Both the position numbers and the translations under genes were made by a program. Shown piece after piece: positions 53,521 through 62,936 of a stretch of DNA of 64,000 nt. This stretch comes from an uncultured Clostridium sp. (GTDB lineage: Bacteria > Bacillota_I > Bacilli_A > RF39 > UBA660). Positions within the stretch are counted from its first letter, which is position 1. The number at the start of each line of letters is the position of its first letter. The stretch lies in contig CAMKPE010000007.1 in the NCBI GenBank assembly GCA_946414595.1, forward strand, positions 1-64,000, read 5' to 3'. A model generated the notes under the pieces. It ran no database searches and was not told where the DNA came from. It saw only the letters and a program-made list of their open reading frames with translations.

Positions 53521-53549
53521 TTGACATCTTATTTTTTTAGTATTAGTAT
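53521..53549 (+). promoter_or_regulatory. Promoter of the cysteine leader and desulfidase gene
   Basis: TTGACA at 53521-53526, a 17-nt spacer and TAGTAT at 53544-53549. The transcript start is expected near 53556, within the 15-nt block shared with the tRNA-Cys promoter. Confidence 0.8.
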
Positions 53550-53573: not shown

Positions 53574-53717
53574 ATGAGTAAATATGTTAATTATTACATT
53601 TACATATTTAAACAAAAATACATCTTTATTAAAGATGTATTGTGTTGCTGCGGCCTAATGATGTCTTCATGCTGTGAAATGTTAAATAATGGAAATAAGA
53701 ACGTTCAAACTGTGTAA
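53574..53717 (+). CDS. Cysteine-rich leader peptide 1 (47 aa)
   Basis: This is an untracked ORF with a GAGGA RBS 6 nt upstream. The product has three consecutive Cys (residues 24-26, codons TGT TGC TGC at 53643-53651) and two more (residues 33-34). It ends N-K-N-V-Q-T-V. Its stop codon (53715-53717) lies in the apical loop of an intrinsic terminator. Such runs are typical of attenuator leaders, in which ribosome progress reports the charging of one tRNA, here Cys-tRNA. The downstream gene encodes a cysteine-degrading enzyme family. It shares layout and ending with leader 2 at 56617. Confidence 0.85.
   Translation: MSKYVNYYIYIFKQKYIFIKDVLCCCGLMMSSCCEMLNNGNKNVQTV
53617..53641 (+). promoter_or_regulatory. 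11-bp hairpin just before the Cys codons of leader 1
   Basis: A perfect 11-bp stem (53617-53627 with 53631-53641) and a 3-nt ATT loop inside the leader ORF, ending 1 nt before the first Cys codon. It is a candidate RNA polymerase pause site, which would synchronise the ribosome with the polymerase. Confidence 0.7.
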
Positions 53718-53735
53718 GTTTGTGCGTTCTTTTTT
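53697..53735 (+). terminator. Leader 1 attenuator terminator
   Basis: The outer 7-bp stem AAGAACG/CGTTCTT and inner 5-bp stem CAAAC/GTTTG are separated by a 2x2 internal loop, with a 7-nt apical loop containing the leader stop and then six Ts. A ribosome at the stop codon would cover the 5' arm and prevent folding. Confidence 0.85.
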
Positions 53736-55048: not shown

Positions 55049-55077
55049 TTGAATTATTAAAAAAATAGTAGTATAAT
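55049..55077 (+). promoter_or_regulatory. Promoter of cysS
   Basis: TTGAAT at 55049-55054, a 17-nt spacer and TATAAT at 55072-55077. The 5' leader would be only about 18 nt, so there is no room for a T-box riboswitch. Confidence 0.75.
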
Positions 55078-55101: not shown

Positions 55102-56544
55102 ATGTCACTTAAAATATATAACGTTTTGGATGGAAAGAAAGAAGATTTCGTTCCTTTAGAAGAAGGAAAGGTAAAGATGTATGCTTGTGGTATCACAGTA
55201 TCAGGTGATGCTCATATTGGGCATGCATATCAAGCAGTAATCTTTGATACAATAAGAAAGTATCTAAGAGCAAGCGGTTATGATGTAACATATGTAAGAA
55301 ACTATACAGATGTTGATGATAAAATTATTATTAACTCTAGAAAAAAAGGAGTAGATCCTATTGAGTTTGCTGAACATTACATTGAAAAAACAAACAAAGA
55401 GATGGATGAATTAGGACTTGAACCTCCTACAATTCAATCAAGGGCTACTGAATGTATTCCTGATATGATTGATTTCATTTCTAAGTTAATAGATAAAGGT
55501 CATGCCTATGCTACACCTGAAGGAAATGTATACTTTAGGGTATCTTCATTCCCAGAATATGGTAAATTATCACATCAACAAATTGATGAAAATATGGTTG
55601 GTGTAAGAAAAGATATCGAACCTGGAAAAGAAGACGATAGAGACTTTGCTTTATGGAAAGCAGCAGGAAAAGATGAAATCTATTGGGAAAGCCCATGGGG
55701 AAAAGGAAGACCAGGATGGCATATTGAATGTTCTACAATGAGTATGAAATATCTTGGAGAAACATTAGATATCCATGGTGGTGGAAAAGATTTAAGATTC
55801 CCACACCATGAAAATGAAGTTGCTCAATCAGAATCATTAACAGGAAAATTATTCTCAAGATTCTGGATGCACAACGGTCTTGTTAAAATAAATGGACAAA
55901 AGATGAGTAAATCATTAGGAAATGGTATCTTACTTGAAGACTTATTAAAACAATACAATCCAGATGTAATTAAAATGACAATGTTATTAAATAACTATAA
56001 GTCAGATTTAAATGTAGTAGATGGATTATTTGAAAACTCTGAAGAGCAAATTTATATGTTCTATAAATTAATGCTTTTAGTAGATAAAATAAAAGGTGAT
56101 TTAACTCCTGATAAAGAATCAGAAGAGTATAAAGAAGTACATGATAACTTTGTAGAAGCAATGGATAATGACTTCAATACATCAGCTGCAATATCTCATT
56201 TATTTACTTATGCAACTCAAATTAATAAAGCTGTTAATAGTAAAAACTATCAAAGAGCAGTTAACTATGTTGGAGGTATTGTAGATAACTATGAAATTTT
56301 AGGATTATTCCAACAAGAACCTAAACAAGTAGTAGATCAAATCAAAAATAAATACTTAAGTGCAATAGATTTAAGTATAGAAGAGATCAATAAATTAATT
56401 GAAGAAAGAATTCAATACAAATATCAAAAGAATTATGAAGAAGCAGATAGAATTAGAAACATCTTAGTTGAAAAAGGAATTGTTATTAATGATAGAGGTC
56501 AAGAAGTTGACTGGGATATTAACTTAGGAGTTTTAAAAAAATAG
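55102..56544 (+). CDS. cysS: Cysteinyl-tRNA synthetase
   Basis: This 480-aa protein is a class I synthetase with A-C-G-I-T-V near residue 28, the HIGH motif in G-D-A-H-I-G-H near residue 37, and the zinc-binding set W-H-I-E-C-S and P-H-H-E-N-E-V-A. KMSKS is in G-Q-K-M-S-K-S-L-G near residue 270, and the DALR-type helical domain follows. It charges tRNA-Cys, so its activity feeds directly into what the two leaders would sense. Strong RBS GGAGGGG. The rel leader promoter begins 12 nt after its stop. Confidence 0.97.
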   Translation: MSLKIYNVLDGKKEDFVPLEEGKVKMYACGITVSGDAHIGHAYQAVIFDTIRKYLRASGYDVTYVRNYTDVDDKIIINSRKKGVDPIEFAEHYIEKTNKEMDELGLEPPTIQSRATECIPDMIDFISKLIDKGHAYATPEGNVYFRVSSFPEYGKLSHQQIDENMVGVRKDIEPGKEDDRDFALWKAAGKDEIYWESPWGKGRPGWHIECSTMSMKYLGETLDIHGGGKDLRFPHHENEVAQSESLTGKLFSRFWMHNGLVKINGQKMSKSLGNGILLEDLLKQYNPDVIKMTMLLNNYKSDLNVVDGLFENSEEQIYMFYKLMLLVDKIKGDLTPDKESEEYKEVHDNFVEAMDNDFNTSAAISHLFTYATQINKAVNSKNYQRAVNYVGGIVDNYEILGLFQQEPKQVVDQIKNKYLSAIDLSIEEINKLIEERIQYKYQKNYEEADRIRNILVEKGIVINDRGQEVDWDINLGVLKK

Positions 56545-56556
56545 TATATTAATGTG

Positions 56557-56585
56557 TTGACTTTAATATTTTAAAGTAGTACTAT
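56557..56585 (+). promoter_or_regulatory. Promoter of leader 2 and rel
   Basis: TTGACT at 56557-56562, a 17-nt spacer and TACTAT at 56580-56585. The sequence that follows is similar but not identical to the block shared by the tRNA-Cys and leader 1 promoters. Confidence 0.78.
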
Positions 56586-56616
56586 TGATATAACTTATTT
56601 ATGCGAGGTGAGTTTT

Positions 56617-56751
56617 ATGACTTACATTATTGAAAGAAAATGGCATAATTTCTATTATTTTACAAAGGATATTTTGTGCTGTAAAAAATTTTCACGCATA
56701 AAAAAAGTTTTATGTTGCTGTGTTATGAATAAGAACGCTCAAACCATGTAA
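56617..56751 (+). CDS. Cysteine-rich leader peptide 2 (44 aa)
   Basis: This is an untracked ORF with a GAGGTGAG RBS. Two consecutive Cys lie at residues 21-22 (56677-56682) and three at 33-35 (56713-56721). It ends N-K-N-A-Q-T-M. The stop codon (56749-56751) is again in the apical loop of the terminator. The order of the CC and CCC runs is the reverse of leader 1, yet I/V-L-C-C contexts and the ending are shared. It lies upstream of the Rel homologue gene, so expression of that gene is predicted to depend on Cys-tRNA supply. Confidence 0.85.
   Translation: MTYIIERKWHNFYYFTKDILCCKKFSRIKKVLCCCVMNKNAQTM
56697..56714 (+). promoter_or_regulatory. 7-bp hairpin at the CCC run of leader 2
   Basis: CATAAAA/TTTTATG stem (56697-56703 with 56708-56714) with an AAAG loop. 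Its 3' arm reaches the first codon of the Cys triplet. It has the same relative place as the 11-bp hairpin of leader 1. Confidence 0.55.
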
Positions 56752-56769
56752 AGGTTTGTGCGTTTTTTT
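56731..56769 (+). terminator. Leader 2 attenuator terminator
   Basis: The outer stem AAGAACG pairs with CGTTTTT (one G-T wobble). The inner 6-bp stem is CAAACC/GGTTTG, with a 2x2 internal loop and a 7-nt apical loop holding the stop codon. The T run continues to 56769. The architecture equals leader 1, including compensated changes in the inner stem. Confidence 0.83.
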
Positions 56770-56786
56770 GTTGGTGAGGTGATAAT

Positions 56787-58238
56787 ATGACAAGTGCAAC
56801 TTTAGAACAATTAATTTCGATGGTAAGTGAATACCTATCAAATGAGGAAGTTGAAAGGATTAAGAGGGCATATACGTTTGCTAAAGATATGCATGAGGGG
56901 CAATTAAGGCAAAATGGAGAGCCGTATATTGTTCATCCGACTACAGTTGCTTGTATATTAGCAGAAATGCACGCTGATACAAATACGATATGTGCAGGAC
57001 TTTTGCATGACACTTTAGAAGATACAAAAACAACGAAGGAAGATATTGCGCATTATTTTAATCAAGATGTAGCAAATCTAGTAGATGGAGTTACAAAGCT
57101 TGCTAAAATGAACTTTTCATCTAAACAGGATCAAAATGTCGCCAATACAAGAAAAATAATAACTGGAATAACACAGGATGTACGAATAATAATAATTAAA
57201 CTTGCAGATAGACTTCATAACATGAGAACATTACAATTTAAATCAGAATTTAAACAAAAAGAAAATGCTATCGAAACACTTGAAATATTTGCACCACTTG
57301 CATATTACATAGGAGCATATAGAATAAAATCAGAATTAGAAGACTTATCACTTAAATACTTAATGCCAACTAAGTATAAAATGATTGAAGAAAAAAAGCA
57401 TTACGTTGAAGCAGAAAGCGGTGCTATGCTTAAAGAAATGCTTTATAAAATACAAAGATTATTAAGTGATAAAGAAATACCTAATGAAATAAAAGTTAGA
57501 ACAAAGAATATTTATGGTATTTATAAAAGATTAAGTGAAGGACAAAAATTATCTGATATACATGACTTGTTAGCACTTAAAATAATGGTTGATGAAGTAG
57601 ATAATTGTTATAGAGCTTTAGGTGCTATTCATAAAGAATATCATCCATTAAATGATAAATTTAAGGATTATATTTGTAATCCTAAAACAAATATGTATAG
57701 AAGCTTACATACAACTGTTTTTGGACCTGATGATAAATTAGTTCAAACACAAATAAGAACATTTGATATGGACAAGATTGCATCATTTGGATTAACTGCT
57801 TATTGGGATTTATTAAAAGGTGATGCAAGACGTGTAATGCAAGAAGATTTAAGAGATAAATATCAATTTTTCCAATCTTTAATGGAGATAAATTCTATGT
57901 TTGGAGATAATCAAGAATTTGTTACTCAAGTAAAGAATGAATTATTTTCTGATAAAGTATATGTTTATACTTCTAAGGGAGACATAATAGAATTACCAAA
58001 AGGAGCGACAATAATAGACTTTGCCTATAAAATACATACTGATATAGGTAATACAATGACTGGAGCTTATGTTAATGATGAAATGGTTCCAGTAGATTAT
58101 GAGTTAAAAAACAAGGATAGGGTAAGAGTAATAACTGATAGCTTCTCCTTTGGACCAAGAGAAGATTGGATGGAAAAAGCCCATACTTCTGTAGCAAAAA
58201 GGAAAATTAAAGAATTTTTAAAAGAAACTAGGAACTAG
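56787..58238 (+). CDS. rel: Truncated Rel/SpoT homologue, synthetase site altered
   Basis: This 483-aa protein has an N-terminal HD hydrolase with intact motifs: G-E-P-Y-I-V-H-P-T, L-L-H-D-T-L-E-D-T and I-K-L-A-D-R-L-H-N-M. The synthetase domain keeps F-K-D-Y-I and S-L-H-T-T-V. It has N-M-Y-R (302-305) where N-G-Y-Q is usual, and Q320 in Q-T-Q-I-R-T where the catalytic Glu of E-V-Q-I-R-T is expected. A TGS domain follows (about 390-450), then the protein stops. The usual helical, zinc-finger and ACT domains (about 250 aa) are absent. Prediction: a (p)ppGpp hydrolase without synthetase and without ribosome sensing. Confidence 0.88.
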   Translation: MTSATLEQLISMVSEYLSNEEVERIKRAYTFAKDMHEGQLRQNGEPYIVHPTTVACILAEMHADTNTICAGLLHDTLEDTKTTKEDIAHYFNQDVANLVDGVTKLAKMNFSSKQDQNVANTRKIITGITQDVRIIIIKLADRLHNMRTLQFKSEFKQKENAIETLEIFAPLAYYIGAYRIKSELEDLSLKYLMPTKYKMIEEKKHYVEAESGAMLKEMLYKIQRLLSDKEIPNEIKVRTKNIYGIYKRLSEGQKLSDIHDLLALKIMVDEVDNCYRALGAIHKEYHPLNDKFKDYICNPKTNMYRSLHTTVFGPDDKLVQTQIRTFDMDKIASFGLTAYWDLLKGDARRVMQEDLRDKYQFFQSLMEINSMFGDNQEFVTQVKNELFSDKVYVYTSKGDIIELPKGATIIDFAYKIHTDIGNTMTGAYVNDEMVPVDYELKNKDRVRVITDSFSFGPREDWMEKAHTSVAKRKIKEFLKETRN

Positions 58239-58246
58239 TTTCTTTT
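58221..58246. terminator. Intrinsic terminator of rel
   Basis: An 8-bp stem GAAACTAG/CTAGTTTC with a 3-nt GAA loop and T run. The rel stop codon lies in the stem. Confidence 0.85.
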
Positions 58247-58251
58247 ATTTT

Positions 58252-61200
58252 TTAAATATGTGGTTTTTGTTCTTCTTCTTCGTTTCTAGATTTATCAAGT
58301 TTTAATAGGTATTCTTTTAATTTTGCGTACATTTTAGCAAATCCAGAAGCACTCATATTTCTTGATACAAATTCATCATGTGGATAAGTATCGTTTCCTG
58401 CAAGATGGTTTTCACCAAAGTCCCATAAACTATATCTTTGAACAAATAAATCAAAAGCAGCAGAATCAATTACTTCTTGTTTTGTGTCTTCTTGATATTT
58501 TCCTTTAGCTATTTCGTAACATTCATCAGCAACAGCTACAAAACTTCTTGCAGCATCTTCAAATGATCCACCATTTTGTAGAATCCAGTTTTCAACACCA
58601 ACACCACCTAAACCTCCTTGAGGAACATCACCTCTATTAGGTTTATATGCTTTAGCATCTTTTAAAACGCTTTTAGCAATTAAGATGTTTGCTACAACTA
58701 ATTTATATTTTTCTGGATCTTGTTTTTTTATTACTGCTAATCTTTCTTTTAATGCCATATCAGTAGAGTAACTAACTTTATCTGTCTTAGTTATAAATGT
58801 AACGTCTAGATCAATTACAATACCATTTCCAATATCAACACCTTTGAATCTCCAATCTCCAAATTTACCGATTGTCTCTTTTTCTTTTATTGATACTAGA
58901 TGTTTTATAATTGTTTCTTTTAATAATCTTAATTTTTCATCATTTGCCATGATTTCTCTATCGACTCTCATCATAAAGTCAAAGTCACCATCATGTGGTT
59001 TATTAGTTCCTCTTCCTGTTGATCCAGTATCTATTAATTCAACTGATCCAGGTGTTAACTCACCATCAATTTCAGTTTTAAGAGTAAGACCAAGTTCATC
59101 TAAAGCAGCTTTTACAGCTTTCATTAATTGATTACGTTTTTCTTGAACTTCTTTTTCATTGTTTTTTAATTGTCCTACCATTGCAAGTACGTCTTCGGAT
59201 TCAAGGTTAGGTGAGAATTTATATTCTTCTTGTTCATAGTAAGACATACCAGCCATCTTAGACCTTAACTCATCATAATCTTTTGGACTAAATAATAACT
59301 TACCTGATTTATCCACAACAGGAATATAGAATCCATTCATAGCAATTTCAATACCAATTCTTGGATCATAAGTTTCTACAACTATATAATCTATATCAGT
59401 GGATGCAAATCCAGTTCTAATACCATAGTGACCAGTTCCCCATACACCAGTATGGAATAATTCATATCTTGATAAGTCTCTTTTTTCATCAGTCATTCCT
59501 TCATGAGTTCTTGTAGTAGAAAATCTACCATTGTTTTTAAGTACTATATAAATAGGACCATAACTATGAGCAGCAGTACCTGAAATAGCATCTCTAAATG
59601 ATGTAGGATTTTCTTTTTCAACAACTGATAAATCTGTATCAAGTGGAGTAGCGTCACTTCCCATTTCAGCTCCTAAGAATTCTCTTGCACAAATACCCCT
59701 TTGTAACATACTACCTAAATATTTAATTTTTCCAATACCTTTAATAATATCTCCTTTTTTTGGTATATATTTGGATGTAGCGCTTTCTCTGTTTCTTTTA
59801 TCTGCTTCTTCAACTTTTGTTTTCATATAAGCCTTAGCTTGACTAACAGTTTCAATTCCAGAATATCCACAGAACATACTTACAACACGATCACCAAGAT
59901 TATAATCCATGCTTCCATCAGGAGATAATATTTGCTTCATCATAGTAATAGTTTCAATAACATTATCACTCTTACTTATTTTTTTACCTTCAAGTTTTCC
60001 TTTCATACTCTTTTGATATAGAGTAAATAGATGATTAGCAAAATTATATAATTCATTCTTATCTTCATCACTTAATTCTTCGTATTTAACTTCACCACGC
60101 ATAATAGCTTCATATAATCTATTACCTGTTTCAATATTATTTAGATATGCTTTCATAGTTCTATTATTTGATCCTAAATTAATCTTAATTAAATCAGAGA
60201 ATACAATAAACTTTTTAGCTCTAGTTGATGCATTTTTTAGAGTAGGAGATATAGTTGATTCATCACCAAAATCAAATCCAGTAAATTCAGGATGTAATAT
60301 TTCAAATGCTGCAAAAATTTTACCTATAGTAGGGATATTATTTTCAACAAATACTTTTTCAATTTCAACAACATCTCTTAATGGATCATCAGATTCCATA
60401 ATTTGATCTGCAAGAGTAACTCTAAATGCATGCATTTCGTGTGAATTAGATAAACTTAATCTACTATATACTTTTCCATATAACGCTAGTTTTTCATAAT
60501 CTAGATTATCTCTATGCTTCATTACATAATCTATAAATATTTTTTCTAAATCAACATCTTTAATTTCACAGAAACTTTTAATAATCTTTAAATAATTTAT
60601 ATTGTTTTCTAAAATATTATCGTTATCAAATACATCTAATAACCATAAATATTTTGTTGGAAATCCAAATACAATATTAGTATTTTTAAAATAATTTAAT
60701 AAATCCGGATTATCTCTAAAGTCTGAATAACTAAACTCACGATTATAATATTTTTGGCGTATTTCTTCTGGAGTATCTTCACCTAAGAACATAGATTGAT
60801 GACTATTTTTGAAGTGTGTTGGAATAGAATCATCATAACTCATTTTTCCTTCTTTTATAGCATTATATATCTGTTTATCTGTAAATTCCATAAAAGACTC
60901 TTTATCTTTAACTTCATATGCATTAAATGATGTTAAATCTATAATCTCTGCTAATTGTTCAATATATTTTCCATAAAGAAGCATAAAGTCAAACGCGTCA
61001 TCCCCAAAGTGTTCTTTAACTTTAGACATAAAGCTTTTTGGATAACCAACAGAATTTCTTATTCTCAAATATTTAAATGCCATTTCTACATTTACTTTTT
61101 TCAAATACTCAATATATTCAGGGTGTTCTAGTATTGTTTGTACATCAAGAGTTCTACTATAATATGCTTCTTTTAATTCATCAGGAGCATCAGGACTTAA

Positions 61201-62853
61201 GAATAAATCAGGATTGCTTTCTATAAAATGTTGTGGAATATTTTTAGGGAATGGTACACCACAATCTAATAAAACATCTCTAAATCTTAAATCAAGTTCT
61301 CTTCGTATTTCATCTCCATTAGGAGAACCTTTATACTCTGGATATACATCAGTTCCGTAATTATCTCTATCATAAATAACTTCTAAGATTTCAGCGTATT
61401 CCATTATTATGTTCATACATTCTTCATGACCAATATTATCACTAATAAAGTTATATATGTTTTTGTATGTACTTATTCCTAGTTCATCATAATATCTAAT
61501 ACTTCTTCTTTGAAAACAAGAAGAGTAGTCTTTACCTTTAATATATGGAACATATTCAGGATGTTCTGCAATATGTTTAGGAGTAAGCTCTTTTTTATAG
61601 AATAATGTTTTTAATTCATCAGGAGCATCTTCACTTAAAAATAATTCTTGATACATTTCTCTAAATTTTCCAGTGATACTGCCAATATCTGGAGCTTTAT
61701 CATTGTAATGTGAATCAGTAGGCCCGTGAATAATCATTCTTTTAACAGCCTCATAAAATTCTTCTTTAGTATATGGACGTGTATATATTCCATCACCAGT
61801 ATATTTAGTAGCAAACATTGAACCACCATAATGTAAATACATCATATTAGCATCTTTTAAGAATTGCCCATTATTTCTAGAAAATAAATGTCCACTTTCT
61901 TGGTCAAATTCCTCAACATTTTTTAATCCATATTCATTAACAAATTGTAATACACCACGATGTCTAATAACATCAAAAGGTATTTCCATTTCAAATAAAT
62001 ATCCTTCTGGTAATCCTTCTAATTGCTTCAAAAAATTTTTAGTTGCATATTCATCATTAGAGTATTCAAGTAAATACTTCTCTAAAGGATAGAAAGTAAA
62101 TAACATCTTATATTCTTCATTTGTTAAAGTCATATAGTCTTCATGCTTTGTTTTCTCAAGTATTTCAATTGCTAGATTTTTAATAAATTCATCTTTTTCT
62201 TCTTCAGTTGATAAACTAGCATATTTTTTAACAATTTCGTTAAAACTTGCATCATAATCTCTAAATATTAATCTAGCCATTACAATATTTTTATTAACAA
62301 ACTCTTTTAATTCTTCTTGAGTAATACTTATTCTTTTTTCTTTTAAAACATAGGAAAGATCCATGTCTTTAAACATTTCCCAATTTTCTAGTATTTCATC
62401 TAAATATAAATCACCCTCGTTATAGGATGTTTTTAACTTTTTAGTTTTTTCATCATCATCTTCTTTAATTTCCATATAAGAGTTAGGAAATCTTTCTTTC
62501 ATTTTTGATGAATAGTAAACAGGGCGTAATTCATCTTTGACAATTTTATATAATTCTTCGTTTAGGTCTTCAACTGATGGGTCTAATTTCAACAACTTTT
62601 GTTTAGCGCTTTCTGGATTAATCTCAATACTTGATAATAATTCCCAATCGAGTTGTTTAACTTTTTCAAGGCTAAATTTTTCTACAAGCATTCTATCAGT
62701 CATATAAAGGCAAGAAACAGGTATTTTATCTTCTAATCCATATTTAATAAAATCTTGAAAACTTAAATAATTAGCAAATATCCTGCTTTCTATATCTTTT
62801 GGAACAGGAAGTTTTTTACCAAATATTTGGCTCTTTTTATACTTGTATTTCAT
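58252..62853 (-). CDS. Giant repeat protein with C-terminal nucleotidyltransferase domain
   Basis: This 1,533-aa soluble protein has residues near 390-800 with at least three repeat units of about 140 aa. Each contains F-L-S/G-x-D-A-P-D-E-L/I-K, then Y-Y-x-R and an E-H-P-E-Y-like segment. After an unknown globular part (about 1050-1240), a nucleotidyltransferase domain begins near 1260. It has G-S-T-G-R-G-T and then D-F-D-F about 10 residues later, with a further D-L-D-V. This is the G-S...D-x-D pattern of CCA-adding/OAS/CD-NTase-like enzymes. ATG 62853 is chosen for its AGGGTGAT RBS. The function is unknown. Confidence 0.75.
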   Translation of the reverse strand: MKYKYKKSQIFGKKLPVPKDIESRIFANYLSFQDFIKYGLEDKIPVSCLYMTDRMLVEKFSLEKVKQLDWELLSSIEINPESAKQKLLKLDPSVEDLNEELYKIVKDELRPVYYSSKMKERFPNSYMEIKEDDDEKTKKLKTSYNEGDLYLDEILENWEMFKDMDLSYVLKEKRISITQEELKEFVNKNIVMARLIFRDYDASFNEIVKKYASLSTEEEKDEFIKNLAIEILEKTKHEDYMTLTNEEYKMLFTFYPLEKYLLEYSNDEYATKNFLKQLEGLPEGYLFEMEIPFDVIRHRGVLQFVNEYGLKNVEEFDQESGHLFSRNNGQFLKDANMMYLHYGGSMFATKYTGDGIYTRPYTKEEFYEAVKRMIIHGPTDSHYNDKAPDIGSITGKFREMYQELFLSEDAPDELKTLFYKKELTPKHIAEHPEYVPYIKGKDYSSCFQRRSIRYYDELGISTYKNIYNFISDNIGHEECMNIIMEYAEILEVIYDRDNYGTDVYPEYKGSPNGDEIRRELDLRFRDVLLDCGVPFPKNIPQHFIESNPDLFLSPDAPDELKEAYYSRTLDVQTILEHPEYIEYLKKVNVEMAFKYLRIRNSVGYPKSFMSKVKEHFGDDAFDFMLLYGKYIEQLAEIIDLTSFNAYEVKDKESFMEFTDKQIYNAIKEGKMSYDDSIPTHFKNSHQSMFLGEDTPEEIRQKYYNREFSYSDFRDNPDLLNYFKNTNIVFGFPTKYLWLLDVFDNDNILENNINYLKIIKSFCEIKDVDLEKIFIDYVMKHRDNLDYEKLALYGKVYSRLSLSNSHEMHAFRVTLADQIMESDDPLRDVVEIEKVFVENNIPTIGKIFAAFEILHPEFTGFDFGDESTISPTLKNASTRAKKFIVFSDLIKINLGSNNRTMKAYLNNIETGNRLYEAIMRGEVKYEELSDEDKNELYNFANHLFTLYQKSMKGKLEGKKISKSDNVIETITMMKQILSPDGSMDYNLGDRVVSMFCGYSGIETVSQAKAYMKTKVEEADKRNRESATSKYIPKKGDIIKGIGKIKYLGSMLQRGICAREFLGAEMGSDATPLDTDLSVVEKENPTSFRDAISGTAAHSYGPIYIVLKNNGRFSTTRTHEGMTDEKRDLSRYELFHTGVWGTGHYGIRTGFASTDIDYIVVETYDPRIGIEIAMNGFYIPVVDKSGKLLFSPKDYDELRSKMAGMSYYEQEEYKFSPNLESEDVLAMVGQLKNNEKEVQEKRNQLMKAVKAALDELGLTLKTEIDGELTPGSVELIDTGSTGRGTNKPHDGDFDFMMRVDREIMANDEKLRLLKETIIKHLVSIKEKETIGKFGDWRFKGVDIGNGIVIDLDVTFITKTDKVSYSTDMALKERLAVIKKQDPEKYKLVVANILIAKSVLKDAKAYKPNRGDVPQGGLGGVGVENWILQNGGSFEDAARSFVAVADECYEIAKGKYQEDTKQEVIDSAAFDLFVQRYSLWDFGENHLAGNDTYPHDEFVSRNMSASGFAKMYAKLKEYLLKLDKSRNEEEEQKPHI

Positions 62854-62907
62854 ACATATCACCCTATAGTAACATTTTATCATATTGGCATAATTAATGC
62901 TATAAAA

Positions 62908-62936
62908 TTGAATAAATGTGTAAACCATGATAGAAT
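62908..62936 (+). promoter_or_regulatory. Promoter of the small Cys/His protein gene
   Basis: TTGAAT at 62908-62913, a 17-nt spacer and TAGAAT at 62931-62936. Confidence 0.65.

Follow-up and report, generated by a model that had tools for sequence, protein, structure and literature searches.

The locus contains, in order, leader 1, a gene for a CyuA-like cysteine desulfidase, cysS, leader 2 and the gene for a short RSH. It was analysed within a window (the whole stretch of DNA under study) of 64,000 nt, taken from a genome of 1.44 Mb that is ~95% complete and whose named relatives are uncultured gut Bacilli. The features are as follows.

53521..53549, + strand: promoter-like TTGACA-17-TAGTAT of leader 1, a candidate matching consensus at 10/12
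53574..53717, + strand: leader peptide 1 ORF, 47 aa, with CCC (53643-53651) then CC (53670-53675)
53697..53731, + strand: intrinsic terminator 1, z -6.08, with the stop codon (53715-53717) at the loop
53753..55036, + strand: gene under leader 1 for a predicted CyuA-like L-cysteine desulfidase, SDH_alpha (Pfam)
55049..55077: promoter-like TTGAAT-17-TATAAT between the desulfidase gene and cysS, a candidate from its consensus match
55102..56544, + strand: cysS (cysteine--tRNA ligase), TIGR00435
56557..56585, + strand: promoter-like TTGACT-17-TACTAT of leader 2, a candidate and a weak match (9/12) in a scan for sigma-70-like consensus
56605..56611, + strand: ribosome-binding site GAGGTGA of leader peptide 2, from the sequence, RBS match of 7
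56617..56751, + strand: leader peptide 2 ORF, 44 aa, ATG at 56617, MTYIIERKWHNFYYFTKDILCCKKFSRIKKVLCCCVMNKNAQTM then stop
56731..56767, + strand: intrinsic terminator 2, U-tract to 56769, fold -16.3 kcal/mol, z -4.97
56787..58238, + strand: short RSH, 483 aa, with HD hydrolase, pseudo-synthetase and TGS domains, from Pfam, TIGR00691 and PDB alignment
58219..58247, strand not assigned: bidirectional terminator-like stem at the end of the RSH gene, from a sequence scan

Beyond the RSH gene lies an ORF of 1558 residues on the minus strand (58252-62928). It has no match in Pfam or NCBIfam, and carries GSTGRGTNKPHDGDFDF, which resembles a nucleotidyltransferase motif.

The two leaders and their terminators

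An earlier note on this DNA had read a promoter, a GAGGTGA start and runs of two and three Cys codons in leader 2, and all of these are borne out by the sequence, as is the ATG, although the consensus match of the promoter-like site (56557-56585) is by itself no evidence of function. The Cys codons occur as CC (56677-56682) followed by CCC (56713-56721), the last of them lying 12 nt from the base of the terminator hairpin. Both leaders end in a strong terminator with the stop codon in or at its loop, as had been proposed; in leader 2 the TAA (56749-56751) lies within an apical loop of 7 nt. The internal loop, previously given as 2x2, folds as a 1x1 loop (U.U), and the innermost pair is C-G.

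Leader 1 was taken to have the same parts in the same order as leader 2. The parts are indeed shared, but the Cys runs are swapped, CCC preceding CC in leader 1. The ribosome-binding site of leader 1 is GAGGATG rather than the GAGGTGA assigned to both, and its terminator loop is 5 nt rather than 7. The peptides share the ending N-K-N-x-Q-T-x, and the terminator regions are 84% identical over 66 nt, so that the likeness of the terminator arms stands. The inner base pair said to have been added is a compensatory change, the innermost pair being U-A in terminator 1 and C-G in terminator 2. A T-box covariance model found no match within the window; elsewhere the genome contains 12 T-boxes at E <= 0.001, of which 9 exceed the gathering score.

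The product of the gene under leader 1 is 26% identical to E. coli CyuA over 426 aa (E 1e-43). Its match to the L-serine deaminase TdcG is poorer (E 2e-4 over 73 aa). The gene is CyuA-like by similarity along the whole enzyme, and is predicted to encode a desulfidase. It was absent from the rest of 141 genomes of the family except for one marginal partial match, so it was of no use for tracing relatives of leader 1. With the desulfidase gene all but confined to this genome among those 141, leader 1 has the look of an RSH element copied onto a cysteine-catabolic gene. The cysS gene that follows has its own promoter-like site, and may therefore be expressed apart from leader 1. A search of the genome found no cysE, which makes it probable that cysteine is taken up by the organism.

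The short RSH is probably a (p)ppGpp hydrolase

The gene under leader 2 had been described as a Rel homologue under a cysteine attenuator. The Cys-codon leader and its terminator are present, but the product is a paralogue and not the cell's Rel. By its domains it is not a long RSH (Rel/SpoT), ending after the TGS domain without a C-terminal half, and a full-length Rel of 724 residues and a small synthetase are encoded elsewhere in the same genome. The gene for the full-length Rel has no such leader upstream.

In the short RSH the catalytic glutamate of the synthetase is replaced by glutamine at residue 320 (codon 57744-57746). We aligned 79 short RSHs of relatives with B. subtilis Rel (PDB 6yxa) and with the genome's own full-length Rel, which retains the glutamate. 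All 79 have glutamine at the position of RelSeq E323 and lysine in place of Arg269, while the catalytic Asp264 is kept. The hydrolase site is preserved throughout: H77, D78, E81, D82, D144 and N148 occur in 79/79, and H53 in 78, the remaining row being gapped. In RelSeq, synthesis is abolished by E323Q and by D264G (PMC13299517). Glutamine in place of the synthetase glutamate, together with an intact hydrolase site, indicates that the short RSH is probably a (p)ppGpp hydrolase in which the synthetase domain is inactive.

The short RSHs lie apart from the long Rels in a phylogenetic tree (SH-aLRT 99). Several of the distant short RSHs examined have the glutamine and no visible leader, so the glutamine may be older than the leader. 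Some genomes, including G027, G066 and G028, have two copies of the short RSH. Both copies in one genome (L078 and L088) have Cys-rich leaders, which differ from each other.

Leaders upstream of related short RSH genes

The DNA 5' of 75 related short RSH genes was read by one fixed procedure. A short ORF led by a ribosome-binding site and ending at or in a terminator is present in 66/75 loci, giving 60 non-redundant peptides, and the terminator has a dG of -8 or lower in 66/75. The possibility raised in the earlier note, that relatives might lack the leader, is thereby refuted. A leader with Cys codons and a terminator upstream of the short RSH gene is real and lineage-wide.

Short ORFs arise easily in AT-rich genomes, and 78 of 204 other terminators have one, so the leader might be a chance ORF over the ordinary terminator of the upstream gene. 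The proportion at RSH loci is much greater (p 3e-14), and a strong ribosome-binding site is found in 32/60 leaders compared with 7/78 matched pseudo-leaders taken before other terminators in the same loci. The enrichment of Cys codons is specific to the reading frame, with 122/1743 in frame (7.0%) against 47/1717 (2.7%) and 65/1702 (3.8%) in the other frames, and leader 2 has its own promoter-like site after cysS. The matched controls and the comparative data rule out a chance ORF, which we regard as highly improbable.

Cysteine is the most over-represented residue in the leaders (z 7.0 against dinucleotide shuffles); serine is also enriched (z 5.5). In the 78 pseudo-leaders Cys accounts for 24/1586 codons (1.5%), significantly fewer than in the leaders (Fisher p 8e-16). 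The Cys codons peak 24-41 nt before the terminator hairpin, where they comprise 62/355 (17.5%) compared with 4/313 in the controls (Fisher p 6e-14). Ten held-out leaders agree with the main set, with 8.5% Cys overall and 16.7% at 24-41 nt. Eleven of the 60 leaders have no Cys, a count that depends on an automatic and imperfect choice of ORF. The peptides of the relatives could not be aligned as a family, and have no obvious motif beyond the density and spacing of Cys. The neighbouring genes vary among species while the leaders stay Cys-rich, so that the Cys signal goes with the RSH gene rather than with whatever lies beside it.

These data bear on the suggestion that the leader is a general sensor of translation, or an instance of simple polarity, reporting that ribosomes follow the polymerase with the Cys codons incidental. 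The architecture alone predicts read-through that depends on translation, and the minority of leaders lacking Cys is in keeping with this. By contrast, no residue is more enriched than Cys, its distance from the terminator is fixed, and it is seldom used in the matched control ORFs, making such a sensor very unlikely.

We note that genes for aminoacyl-tRNA synthetases adjoin the short RSH gene as 8/49 upstream and ~10/51 downstream neighbours (loci L036-L113). This is commoner than the ~2% that the usual number of such genes would predict, and the type of synthetase differs from species to species. A genome scan for TGYTGYTGY gave 245 matches, too many to help; the pattern also fits repeats of other codons and was therefore uninformative.

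Position of the stop codon and search for an antiterminator

Classical attenuators require an antiterminator, and a stop codon located well upstream of the terminator. Both features were calibrated on the E. coli leaders thrL, leuL, trpL, hisL, pheL, ilvL and pheM, together with pyrL. In the seven classical leaders the stop codon lies at -20 to -61 relative to the base of the hairpin, and in pyrL at +44. It lies between -16 and +27 of the hairpin 5' base in 54/60 RSH leaders, compared with 35/78 controls. Complementarity to the 5' arm of the terminator was sought in the ORF, its last 45 nt and the 5' UTR of the 60 leaders. The classical leaders gave a mean z of -2.8 (n=7) and pyrL +0.5. In the 60 RSH leaders no antiterminator was detected (mean z +0.28 +/- 0.11), using a statistical test that short or unusual pairings could escape. 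The RSH leader thus has the anatomy that defines the pyrBI type, with a leader ORF that runs into the terminator and no antiterminator.

In E. coli, termination is repressed by way of the ribosome when a stop codon lies within about 27 nt of the terminator (PMC4824070). Conversely, E. coli expression falls about 26-fold on stalling upstream of the pyrL terminator (PMC5021804). At msrDL, a ribosome on the stop codon blocks a terminator (PMC10314930). With no antiterminator and the stop codon in or at the terminator, the anatomy of the RSH leaders is consistent with a ribosome that completes the leader and directly blocks the terminator. To judge from this anatomy, the sign of control is probably on with cysteine and off without it, opposite to trp and his attenuation. 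The copy on the desulfidase gene fits a cysteine-on sign. In six relatives (L060, L063, L080, L081, L101 and L110) an ORF extends across the entire terminator and stops close to the start of the RSH gene or past it, an arrangement that would also fit disruption of the terminator by translating ribosomes.

The earlier note had read the leader as a cysteine attenuator. In a classical attenuator of the trp/his type, a stall at the Cys codons would let an antiterminator form, inducing the RSH during cysteine starvation. This sign has been proposed for the cysS motif of Rhodobacterales, with its Cys-codon leader (PMC8632094), and mycobacterial polycysteine leaders are reported to tie expression to cysteine, by translational attenuation. 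Inclusion of cysS within the leader 1 operon would also suit induction by starvation. Yet the 60 leaders lack the antiterminator signal that is clear in the classical controls, and a ribosome finishing at a stop codon that lies in the terminator would prevent termination rather than permit it. The small hairpin proposed at the CCC is not supported by folding in leader 2 (-0.6 kcal/mol, z +0.66) or in leader 1 (z -0.06). Moreover, induction of a desulfidase by cysteine is sensible and its induction by starvation is not, since the cell would make a cysteine-destroying enzyme when short of cysteine. We consider a classical attenuator unlikely.

A finishing ribosome need not be reporting cysteine. 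The nascent Cys-rich chain might sense another signal, such as an antibiotic, redox state or a metal, holding the ribosome at or near the stop codon so that it blocks the terminator as in msrDL. With the ribosome at the stop codon the Cys residues would sit in the exit tunnel, and the diversity of the leaders, some without Cys and with Ser enriched too, is consistent with such a role. However, arrest peptides usually need particular residues, and no obvious shared motif is seen. The Cys runs are ordered differently in the two copies of this genome, and one copy is on a cysteine-catabolic gene. On this evidence a signal other than cysteine is quite unlikely.

A model for control by cysteine

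We return to the proposal that completion of the leader in the presence of cysteine blocks the terminator. RNA polymerase would start at the leader promoter, with a ribosome translating the leader behind it. When Cys-tRNA is plentiful the ribosome would pass the Cys codons and reach the stop codon in the terminator, covering its 5' arm so that the polymerase continues into the RSH gene. When Cys-tRNA is scarce the ribosome would wait 24-41 nt upstream, the terminator would fold, and transcription would stop. Given a dedicated (p)ppGpp hydrolase as the product, cysteine sufficiency would lower the alarmone, and a shortage would remove the hydrolase brake while the separate full-length Rel makes the alarmone. 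The leader 1 copy would switch on the breakdown of cysteine when it is plentiful. The system would be a variant of ribosome-mediated transcription attenuation, in which translation of the leader is predicted from the sequence.

Some observations stand against this model. One would expect cysS, which is downstream of leader 1, to rise at low Cys-tRNA. A ribosome stalled at the last Cys codon of leader 2, 12 nt from the hairpin, would touch the outermost and weakest pairs. The leaders without Cys, and the enrichment of Ser, also count against it. The polymerase of B. subtilis is reported to run ahead of the ribosome (PMC9226507), so coupling of the two in this lineage is an assumption.

Weighing these points we lean towards the whole model of a cysteine-on leader, a terminator blocked by the ribosome and a hydrolase as the product. 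For the broader proposal, of a single-amino-acid leader of reversed sign that is conserved in this lineage of gut bacteria while its peptide turns over rapidly, coupling cysteine supply to the destruction of (p)ppGpp through the short RSH hydrolase, the arguments seem to us evenly balanced. Should this hold, the amount of an enzyme that removes the alarmone would be governed transcriptionally by a single amino acid, beside the usual control of ribosome-bound Rel. This would be a clear case of amino-acid-specific attenuation with a sign opposite to trp and his and without an antiterminator, and would account for the way in which gut bacteria that depend on cysteine match their growth to its supply.

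Comparison with known systems

The earlier note held that an alarmone enzyme under a single-amino-acid leader was undescribed, and we found no published example in the open-licence literature searched. The pyrBI leader (pyrL) of E. coli resembles the RSH leader in that its ORF overlaps the terminator with no antiterminator, and the advancing ribosome prevents formation of the terminator, as we propose here. Unlike the RSH leader, pyrL senses UTP through pausing of the polymerase rather than an amino acid, and its stop codon lies beyond the hairpin.

Two systems share the Cys codons. The uORFC-8-2 motif of cysS in Rhodobacterales (PMC8632094) likewise pairs a terminator with a short upstream ORF containing tandem Cys codons. 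It differs in having a two-stem structure with the Cys codons in the first stem, in controlling cysS, in the starvation-induced sign proposed for it, and in its restriction to alphaproteobacteria. Mycobacterial polycysteine sORFs (Canestrari et al. 2020, cited in PMC9031893) are reported to be Cys-codon leaders too, with cysteine-dependent downstream expression; in contrast to the RSH leader they are leaderless, and act by translational attenuation on cysteine-biosynthesis operons.

The leader msrDL of a macrolide-resistance ABC-F gene (PMC10314930) is like our model in that a ribosome at the leader stop codon blocks an intrinsic terminator. There the stall is caused by an antibiotic, and it is stalling that induces rather than completed translation. 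For the enzyme the closest relative in kind is SpoT[Hs], the monofunctional hydrolase of Moraxellaceae (PMC9974481), which like the short RSH is derived from a long RSH and keeps an inactive synthetase domain. SpoT[Hs] retains the full C-terminal half, whereas the short RSH ends after the TGS domain and coexists with a full-length Rel.
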